DNA from: Candidatus Altimarinota bacterium | GTDB taxonomy: Bacteria; Patescibacteriota; Gracilibacteria; BD1-5; UBA6164 | Assembly (NCBI GenBank): GCA_028697205.1 | Contig: JAQVFO010000001.1 | Coordinates: forward strand, 71,086-135,085 | DNA: 64,000 nucleotides | Direction of reading: 5' to 3' | Shown: positions 25,964 through 41,734 of the stretch, in pieces | How the letters are laid out: every line of letters starts with the position of its first letter | Position numbering within the stretch: position 1 is the first letter of the stretch | Position numbers and translations under genes: made by a program | The notes under the pieces: generated by a model | Told to the model about the DNA's origin: nothing | Seen by the model: the letters and a program-made list of their open reading frames with translations, nothing else | Database searches by the model: none

Positions 25964-26129
25964 GGGAATACAGCTCGAGGCAGAGAGCACTAACTAACTG
26001 AGCTTTGTGGATGCGGGATGTATCTCTTAGCAAAGTCAATGCATAGCTAGTAATCTGGAAATGGTTTCAGGTGAATACTTGCATGGTAGAGGTTAGAGGT
26101 CATAGGTTCGAATCCTATTATTCCCACCA
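25964..26129 (+). tRNA. tRNA-like gene interrupted by about 90 bases in the anticodon loop
   Basis: The two ends make a canonical tRNA. Acceptor GGGAATA (25964-25970) pairs with TATTCCC (26119-26125), followed by A and an encoded CCA (26127-26129). The D-arm is GCTC-GAGGCAGA-GAGC, the T-arm ATAGG-TTCGAAT-CCTAT, the variable loop AGGTC. The anticodon stem CTAAC (25990-25994) pairs with GTTAG (26092-26096), but 97 bases lie between them instead of 7. The extra sequence folds (CTTTG..CAAAG, CTGGAAA..TTTCAG, ATGC..GCAT). It is too short for a group I intron, and position 33 is not the usual U, so the anticodon cannot be read off. Alternatives: a very small tmRNA-like RNA (a short frame ends TAG TAA inside), or a degraded gene. 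Strong promoter and terminators argue for expression. Confidence 0.6.
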
Positions 26130-39048: not shown

Positions 39049-40071
39049 ATGTTAGAATTAATAAATATTGTAGTTAATTTTTTAACAAACTACCCTTTTG
39101 TATTTTTTATAATACTCGTGGCACTTGCTTTTGATTTTACAAATTGAATGCATGATAGTGCTAATTCAATAGCAACAATTGTATCAACTCGTGTTTTATC
39201 ACCAAAAGTAGCTGTAGTATGGGCTGCATTTTTCAACTTTGCAGCATTTTTTATAGTTTGAACTGAGGTAGCAAAAACTATATGAAAATGAATGATAGAT
39301 ATAAATATAGTTACACCAACAGTAATATTATGTGCTTTATTATGAGCAATTTCTTGGAATATTTTTACTTGGTTTTTTTGATTACCTACAAGTTCATCTC
39401 ATGCACTTTTGGGAGGTTATTTATGAAGTGCAGTTGCAAAATGATGAGTATGAGCAGTTATTTTATCATGATGGACTAAAACAATTATATTTATATTTTT
39501 GGCTCCATTAATCTGAATGTTATTTTGATTTATAATACTTTTAATTTCAACTTGGTTATTAAAGAATGTTAAGTTAGTAGTTGTTAATAAATTATCTCGT
39601 TCCCTACAATTATTATCATCTGCTTTATACTCTCTTTGACATTGAGCTAACGATGCACAAAAAACTATGTGAATTATAGTAAGTTTATTATTATCTGTAA
39701 ATCTTGTAACTACTGCAGAACCACCATTATGGGTTATGATGGCTGCATATACTGCTATTGCTTTTTGAACAATAACTTGATGATGGAGAATTGTAAAAAC
39801 AATGTGAAGTAAGATTATAGAATTAAGACCTATAGATTGATTTAGTGCTGAGACAGCAAGTGCTATAAGTTTATTTACAGCATCTCATTTATGAGTTCCT
39901 ATAAGTACAACTCATGCGATTACTTGAGCTATATCTTGAGTATGAATAGCAAAAAATTCTAGGGCAATAAGATGGTGAATTGCTTCAAAAATAGTTTATG
40001 CTTGGATTTTTACTATCCCTTGAGCTTGTTTGGTTTGATTTTCATTATTTAAGATTTCAACTATATTTTAA
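39049..40071 (+). CDS. pit: Low-affinity inorganic phosphate transporter, Pit family
   Basis: 340 residues, about ten TM helices. The two signature repeats are present: ALAFDFTNGMHDSANSIAT with LPTSSSHALLGG in the N-half, and LYSLGHGANDAQKTMGI with VPISTTHAITGA in the C-half. Imports phosphate with a cation. Operon with the DUF47 gene. Several signature glycines are TGA. Confidence 0.96.
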
Positions 40072-40109
40072 AAAATTTGACAAAATAAATAAAAATATAA
40101 AATAAAATT

Positions 40110-40280
40110 AAATAAATAACTTGTTTTAAAACAAGGTTGGAAACTTGTAAGAGTTATTTAAAGTTAAAAGTGTCCTTCTTTTCGAAGGGAACTTGGGTGG
40201 AACCGTCCAAATTAAATGCAAATGCAAAAATGGATCCCAAGGTAATATTTTGAAAAAGATATACCTTAGGGGTCTTTTTC
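40110..40280 (+). promoter_or_regulatory. Glycine T-box riboswitch of glyS
   Basis: The T-box core GGGTGGAACCG is at 40195-40205. Its TGGA would pair with the UCCA end of tRNA-Gly. Stem III is TCCTTC-TTTTC-GAAGGGA just upstream. CTTGGG (40193-40198) can pair with CCCAAG (antiterminator). The same CCCAAGGTA instead pairs with TACCTTAGGGG to form a terminator ending in TTTTT (about 40232-40279). A short stem I (AAATAAC..GTTATTT) holds GGA-A at 40139-40142 as likely specifier, a glycine codon. Uncharged tRNA-Gly would turn on glyS. Stem I is much shorter than in classical T-boxes. Confidence 0.85.
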
Positions 40281-40309: not shown

Positions 40310-41734
40310 ATGGAAAATAATTTTACAATGAAAGATATAGTAAATTTATCACAAGCTAGATGATTTGTTTATGCTTGAAGTGAAATTTATTGATGACTTG
40401 CAAATTCTTGGGATTATGGTCCTTATGGGAGTCTGATGAAAGAAAACATAAAAAATCTTTGGATAAAAGAATTTGTGCAAAAAAAAGATGATATGATGTT
40501 ACTTGATAGCTCAATCTTATTAAATCCTAGAGTTTGGATAGCTTCAGGACATGTATGAGGATTCTCAGATCCACTTATAGATGATAAAAACACAAAAGAG
40601 AGATTTAGAGCTGATAAATTGCTTGAGAATCTTATTTCTGAAATGTGAGATAGTGCAAAATCTTTAGAGTCAAAATATGGTGTTACAAATCTTATCCCAG
40701 AATCTTGGCCTATGGAAAAACAAGCTGAGGTTATGAGATGAGAAAAAGTAAAAAATCCAAATTCTTGAAATGTTTGAGATTGGACAGATGTTAAGAAATT
40801 TAACTTGATGTTTAAAACATTTCAATGAGTTACTGATGATTCATCTGCAACTGTTTATATGAGACCAGAAACTGCACAAGGAATTTTTGTAGATTTTCCA
40901 AATGTACTTAGAACAAGTAGAAGAAAAATTCCATTTTGAATTGCTCAAGTTGGTAAAGCTTTTAGAAATGAGATAACTCCAGGTAATTTCATATTTAGAA
41001 CTAGAGAGTTTGAACAAATGGAAATAGAGTATTTTTGTGAGCCATGAAAAGATTTAGAAGTACATGCAGAATGGAAAGCTGATTGTAAAAATTTTCTTTT
41101 AAATACGATATGATTAAAAGAAGAAAATCTAAGACTTAGAGATCATGATAAAGATGAACTTTCTCATTATAGCAACGCTACTACAGATATAGAATATAAA
41201 TTCCCATTTGGTTGGTGAGAACTATGGGGAATTGCTGATAGAACAGATTTTGATCTAAAAGCACATATGACTGAATCAAAAGCTGATATGAGTTACTTTG
41301 ATCCTGTAAATAATAGAAAATTTATACCTTATGTTATTGAACCATCAGTTTGACTAAATAGATTATTTTTAACTGCACTTTGTGATGCTTATACTCAAGA
41401 AGGAGAGTGAGAAGAACAAAGAACTTATTTAAAATTAGATCCAAAAGTTGCTCCTATAAAAGTTTGAGTTTTACCAGTTGTTAAAAAGATATCAGATATT
41501 GCTAAACCTATTTTTAAACAACTTGCAGAAGATTTTGTATGTGAATATGATGATGTTTGATCTGTAGGGAAAAGATATGCTAGATTTGATGAGATTTGAA
41601 CTCCATTTTGTGTAACTATTGATAGTGAAAATTATGATGCTTGAAAAGTTACAGTAAGATATAGAGATAGTATGGAACAAGAATTAGTTGATATAACTAA
41701 ATTAAATGAATTTATAAGACAAAAGTTGAAATAA
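40310..41734 (+). CDS. glyS: Glycyl-tRNA synthetase, single-chain dimeric type
   Basis: 474 residues, class II. RGFVYAGSEIYGG and [16 protein letters not shown] at the N-terminus, [19 protein letters not shown] (motif 2 region), [50 protein letters not shown] and IEPSVGLNRLF (motif 3), then an anticodon-binding domain (PIKVGVLPVVKK). Charges all tRNA-Gly, presumably including the UGA reader. Controlled by the T-box directly upstream. Confidence 0.97.

Follow-up and report, generated by a model that had tools for sequence, protein, structure and literature searches.

What becomes of a switch that reads a standard codon once a reassigned stop codon encodes most residues of the amino acid concerned? 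This question is raised by the leader of glyS, the gene for glycyl-tRNA synthetase (GlyRS), in a Candidatus Altimarinota genome (assembly GCA_028697205.1) whose genes are translated with table 25, in which UGA encodes glycine. We analysed a stretch of 64,000 nucleotides (nt) from contig JAQVFO010000001.1, here called the window, in which the leader spans positions 40113-40280, 5' of glyS; this and all other window features named below lie on the + strand. We believe that the leader is very probably a minimal glycine T-box that attenuates transcription, with tRNA binding and switching of the kind expected from the T-box family. It is a known kind of switch in a minimal form, and that form is common to almost every relative examined.

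Anatomy of the glyS leader

The leader has the anatomy of a T-box, in the order promoter, Stem I, linker, stem III, antiterminator, terminator and glyS. The promoter (40077-40103; -35 TTGACA at 40077-40082, -10 TAAAAT at 40098-40103, spacer 15) received the top promoter score, and its -10 element ends 92 nt 5' of the GGTGG sequence. Shortly 3' of it begins an ultrashort Stem I of ~48 nt (40113-40160), delimited by folds and by covariation of its apical helix in relatives. In these folds an outer helix (40113-40122 with 40151-40160) leads through an asymmetric internal loop (40123-40130 and 40149-40150) to the apical helix (40131-40135 with 40144-40148), which closes an 8-nt loop, GUUGGAAA (40136-40143). 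This loop holds the GGA specifier (40139-40141), with U on its 5' side and A on its 3' side. Fold and sequence then place a single-stranded linker of 7 nt (40161-40167), too short for a Stem II domain. The motif of RRRxG, stem III and AA, as defined in an excerpt of PMC7583486, follows at 40168-40191, with AAGUG as the RRRxG flank (40168-40172), a helix of 40173-40178 with 40184-40189, and AA at 40190-40191.

The antiterminator (40192-40241) was delimited with an enforced fold and by covariation in relatives. It comprises helix A1 (40192-40197 with 40236-40241) and helix A2 (40205-40208 with 40232-40235, including a G.U pair), between which lies the 7-nt T-box bulge UGGAACC (40198-40204). An intrinsic terminator hairpin (40232-40279; -20.1 kcal/mol; U run at 40275-40279) includes in its 5' strand the 3' strands of both A1 and A2, so the two folds are mutually exclusive. 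The leader folds better than 200 of 200 dinucleotide shuffles (z -3.6), and its terminator form (-45.9 kcal/mol) is more stable than the enforced antiterminator form (-36.9 kcal/mol), a gap that would suit a switch whose default state is off and which needs a tRNA to hold it open. The gene downstream (40310-41734) belongs to NCBIfam families NF003211 and TIGR00389, and its product scores 633 bits against the glycine--tRNA ligase model NF003211 (cut-off 312).

Relatives were drawn from glyS loci of named genome contigs and from the order to which the genome belongs, represented by 77 genomes. A glyS gene was found in 69 of the 77, and 68 have usable upstream sequence; G003, where this sequence ends at a contig edge, was left out. 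A T-box lies 5' of glyS, or farther up the glyS operon, in all 68, of which 65 were parsed by script and three (G023, G025 and G027) were read directly. One genome (G039) has no glyS match, yet carries a T-box. The script was given 68 loci and failed on L228, which has GAGUGG for GGGUGG, and on L267 and L268, which are second hits.

In the relatives, 98.1% of cells in A1 and A2 are paired, with 47 double-change cells against 14.2 after shuffling, and every version of the alignment slid out of register is worse. A terminator competing with A1 is present in 63 of the 65 parsed leaders; one of the remaining two is N-masked and the other misparsed (L230, from G057, was misparsed in the fold analysis). 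The sequence-only reading of this locus, which had proposed a T-box on glyS with an antiterminator/terminator switch, a probable GGA specifier and an unusually short Stem I, is thus borne out by the window and by the comparison of glyS leaders that it had called for: the elements are conserved, and compensatory changes occur in A1, A2 and the apical stem. Matches to AbsR25, Fungi_U3 and CRISPR-DR62 across the leader are at chance level. A table 25 open reading frame (ORF) at 39049-40071, located 5' of the leader, resembles by eye the gene of a Pit-type phosphate permease.

The specifier and the glycine tRNAs

Of 65 leaders, 63 have a hairpin presenting TGGNR in the zone from -85 to -30; in 50 dinucleotide-shuffled sets of leaders, the number averages 11 and never exceeds 19. 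This pattern itself imposes the U before and the purine after GGN, and neither is independent evidence. Counted by genome, the specifier is GGA in 44, GGC in 10, GGU in 6, GGG in 4 and absent in 1, so that GGN occurs in 64 of the 65 parsed leaders; the GGA candidate of G029 sits 5' of the promoter, and we do not take it as genuine. In G001, a GGA hairpin found upstream led us to discard UGA or GAA in the loop CUGAAACUA as possible specifiers. Distances from the -10 element to the specifier refer to 28 hand-picked leaders of 62.

The hairpin that carries the specifier is itself maintained. Its apical stem averages 5.13 base pairs (bp), compared with 2.93 when 3' arms are swapped between leaders (sd 0.16, maximum 3.58, 1000 shuffles; 60 of 62 leaders, with L137 and L271 dropped). 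In a class-A subset of 15 hairpins without gaps, 14 of them distinct, the stem shows 20 double-change cells against 7.9 after shuffling. Since L046 and several Stem I regions came out misaligned by MAFFT, Stem I statistics were obtained by script or from this class-A subset.

The third base of the specifier tracks the tRNA set. With four genomes set aside whose sole matches look unlike the gene, pattern searches place tRNA-Gly(GCC) in 12 of the 77 genomes; ARAGORN confirms it in 11 of 11 fetched, and the twelfth (G017) is without a glyS match. Of these 11 genomes 9 use GGC as specifier, compared with 1 of the 57 that lack tRNA-Gly(GCC) (Fisher p 1e-8); per genus, the counts are 5 of 6 versus 1 of 28 (p 1e-4). 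Given this tie, we conclude that the loop codon follows the existing glycine tRNAs in the GGN register. The window's own genome has tRNA-Gly(UCC), and its GGA specifier suits both the regulated amino acid and the existing tRNA. T-box specifiers are described as ending in C in an excerpt of PMC7583486, a rule that is broken in the leaders of genomes without tRNA-Gly(GCC).

If the leader works as its family does, RNA polymerase would start just upstream of the ~48-nt Stem I, the anticodon of uncharged tRNA-Gly(UCC) would pair with GGA in the apical loop, and the UCCA end of the same tRNA would pair with UGGA of the T-box bulge. Bound tRNA would keep A1 and A2 paired, so that no terminator forms and glyS is transcribed; glycylated tRNA would be unable to dock, and the terminator would form. 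The A of UGGA is complementary to U73 of tRNA-Gly(UCC), as it is to U73 of a tRNA-Gly(UCA) gene found in G054. Since U73 is carried by only 3 of the 30 tRNAs of the window's genome, namely tRNA-Gly(UCC), tRNA-Thr(UGU) and tRNA-Cys(GCA), the UGGA bulge alone would already rule out most tRNAs.

What this switch would miss depends on codon usage. Across 37 ORFs of the window, 794 of 935 glycine codons (85%) are UGA and 55 are GGA, and in glyS itself 20 of the 32 glycine codons are in-frame UGA. The very frequent UGA of the sequence-only reading is therefore real, and at this share the GGA specifier would read a minor isoacceptor. From the GGA register it would follow that the charging of tRNA-Gly(UCA) goes without direct sensing. 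One GlyRS should charge both tRNA-Gly species, so the minor tRNA may suffice as a gauge of glycine or GlyRS shortage.

Alternatively, the register might be shifted or dual: the anticodon of tRNA-Gly(UCA) would pair with the invariant UGG of the loop through U-A, G-C and G.U, and the tRNA monitored would be the UGA decoder, either by itself or together with tRNA-Gly(UCC). The predominance of UGA in the window would suit such a sensor, as would the fact that the recoded family keeps UGG but has any of A, U, G and C as the third base of GGN. Furthermore, the U73 of the sole tRNA-Gly(UCA) found is compatible with the UGGA bulge, and wobble of a UCA tRNA on UGG is treated in an excerpt of PMC8629427. 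However, the U before GGN also occurs where tRNA-Gly(GCC) is present and where glyS is free of in-frame TGA, the third base tracks tRNA-Gly(GCC), and a leader from outside the order (L242) has C before GGC. The purine after GGN is likewise as expected after a specifier, though both it and the U were imposed by the search pattern. We consider this alternative quite improbable. The related proposal that, in the UGA-recoded family, the loop has a second register in which UGG is read by tRNA-Gly(UCA), one loop thereby policing two glycine tRNAs of different codon boxes, is a shade less improbable but still unlikely.

In the window's own assembly, no tRNA-Gly(UCA) was found by the Rfam tRNA model (E up to 10), by two patterns or by BLAST with the G054 gene; an assembly gap, an intron or strong divergence is possible. 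The patterns returned the gene from G054 only, and they also wrongly returned tRNA-Trp and tRNA-Glu. The window contains, at 25964-26129, a tRNA-like gene with a full acceptor stem, D-arm, T-arm and CCA but an insertion of ~90 nt at its anticodon arm, of which the Rfam tRNA model covers the 3' part alone (20.5 bits). It was dropped as a candidate for the missing tRNA-Gly(UCA): ARAGORN intron guesses disagree and give other anticodons, the discriminator is A, and a search of 48 family genomes found no full-length relative. A further weak tRNA match (16.4 bits; L141, G000:C3:69172-69231) resembles by eye the 3' end of a tmRNA.

Placement among the published T-box classes

An excerpt of PMC10482949 recognizes four T-box classes, in which specifier binding is reinforced by a distal Stem I module that contacts the tRNA elbow, by Stem II, or by both. 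The terminal position of the specifier loop, which measures 8 nt in the window, excludes the distal module here, and a gap of only 7 nt from Stem I to the flank of stem III excludes Stem II. The architecture of the glyS leader matches none of the four classes: the group unites a transcription terminator with an ultrashort Stem I and lacks Stem II. Without an elbow-binding distal Stem I or the S-turn of Stem II, tRNA binding probably relies on strong G-C pairs between codon and anticodon and on selectivity for U73.

With Class II, exemplified by Bacillus subtilis glyQS, the leader shares glycine specificity, the lack of Stem II, an antiterminator/terminator pair and control of glycyl-tRNA synthetase. 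It differs in its Stem I, a hairpin of ~48 nt whose terminal 8-nt loop holds the specifier, where that class has a long Stem I with interdigitated T-loop module, and in reading GGA rather than GGC. Could it nevertheless be an ordinary Class II glycine T-box whose distal Stem I part was overlooked? The definition of that class excerpted from PMC10482949 (glycine-specific, terminator-type, no Stem II) invites the idea. Yet the specifier loop of 8-9 nt is closed by 3-8 bp, with no extension possible beyond the loop. At the other end, 53 of 62 leaders have their best-scoring promoter ending 79-108 nt 5' of GGUGG, which puts the beginning of Stem I near the expected transcript start and leaves no space farther 5'. 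We regard an overlooked Class II element as extremely unlikely.

Class III, exemplified by Nocardia farcinica ileS, resembles the leader in its short Stem I without an elbow-binding module and in the apical position of its specifier. According to an excerpt of PMC10482949, its loop has 5-6 nt, Stem II is required and control is mostly translational. In contrast, the loop of glyS leaders is larger, mostly 8-9 nt, there is a transcription terminator, and the amino acid is glycine; glyS leaders have no Stem II, and the window's leader has no room for a Stem II with S-turn.

The promoter distance has exceptions, among them G002 (-57), G015 (-43) and G029 (-36). In G002, Stem I is a single 17-nt hairpin. 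In G015 (L274, reverse strand; bulge UGGGACC) no specifier hairpin was found, and in G029 (L271, reverse strand) the sole candidate hairpin lies 5' of a TTGACA-17-TATACT promoter, in the apparent end of the upstream gene. Judged by promoter consensus in two draft genomes, these last two look like T-boxes without Stem I, which may select their tRNA through its 3' end alone.

Several observations weigh against the view that the leader is a working T-box. According to an excerpt of PMC7583486, a long Stem I is generally a requirement for transcriptional T-boxes, and an ultrashort one is typical of translational T-boxes; the present leader runs counter to this pattern. The same source names the wobble at the base of A2 as the chief guard against 3'-aminoacyl groups, and this G.U pair, kept in the window, is G-C in 54 of 62 order leaders. 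Stem III is cut to a few bases in many relatives. Kinship among genomes weakens the specifier test when it is made by genus (1e-4 versus 1e-8). Finally, Rfam at its gathering threshold finds nothing in the window. In the covariance-model check advised by the sequence-only reading, RF00230 finds a T-box at 40102-40242 (28.0 bits, E 2.5e-4), at a score far under the gathering score of 93. The leader shares the T-box bulge, the antiterminator and the stem III flanks with this model, whose Stem I and Stem II parts fail to align with it. Elsewhere in the genome, RF00230 has no match at E up to 10. A possible second T-box at C3:48690 (24.4 bits, E 0.79) was rejected, as the fetched stretch (L282) has no T-box motif.

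These features might instead suggest a plain terminator beside a decayed T-box relic that no longer responds to tRNA, given the AT-rich sequence, the weak Rfam score, the reduced stem III and the changed A2 pair in relatives. A relic would not readily account for a T-box kept in 68 of 68 usable order genomes, for the compensatory changes or for a specifier that tracks the tRNA set, and we find this explanation very unlikely. A functional glycine T-box is the reading that we retain.

Spread among relatives and relation to UGA recoding

A model (R1) made from 16 leaders finds the T-box in 59 of the 77 order genomes at E<=1, a lower bound because leaders in, for example, G013, G022 and G026 were missed by R1 and found by direct reading. 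It matches 49 of 288 class genomes at E<=0.1, four of them outside the order, and 8 of 379 phylum genomes at E<=0.01, own genome excluded. Ultrashort glyS T-boxes occur in other Patescibacteria at L242 (GGC), L246 (GGA) and L312 (GGC). A literature search that excluded subscription papers found no paper linking a T-box to Gracilibacteria, to the candidate phyla radiation or, judging by titles, to Patescibacteria, and a paper that names riboswitches and Gracilibacteria proved unrelated in excerpts, in keeping with the earlier remark that T-boxes are not widely described in these phyla; the TBDB class II model was run on Actinobacteria, according to an excerpt.

The sequence-only reading had presented the switch in the light of the extra glycine codon, and here the comparison goes the other way. 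The same leader with the same loop lies 5' of glyS genes without in-frame TGA (for example in G013, G020, G022, G024 and G026). Given these leaders and the ultrashort glyS T-boxes far outside the order, the switch is probably older than the recoding and independent of it, rather than its special consequence.

Other leaders and genes were encountered in the same searches. Class and phylum matches include thrS leaders in other Patescibacteria with a UGGA bulge and, where readable, an ACC specifier; their Stem I is long in some and ultrashort in others. By eye, L237, L238, L244, L311 and L313 have a longer Stem I, a type also seen at L241, where no ORF was called, and L240, L243 and L245 carry ACC in the loop of a short hairpin. 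A different T-box-like leader with a UGGUACC bulge and a terminator is present at L267 (G058:C275), in a genome bin of 2.7 Mb and 500 contigs. Many relatives (L040, L045, L051, L053 and others) have an extra ORF between T-box and glyS; judged by eye, one of these resembles a dCMP deaminase and another a PemK/MazF toxin.

Standard annotation misses this leader, since Rfam scores for it lie far under the cut-off. A widespread transcriptional T-box that has neither an elbow module nor Stem II indicates how little a tRNA-sensing switch may need. Moreover, the glyS leaders of this group offer a natural series of Stem I reduction, from K-turn-like through bulged forms to a single hairpin and, apparently, to none.
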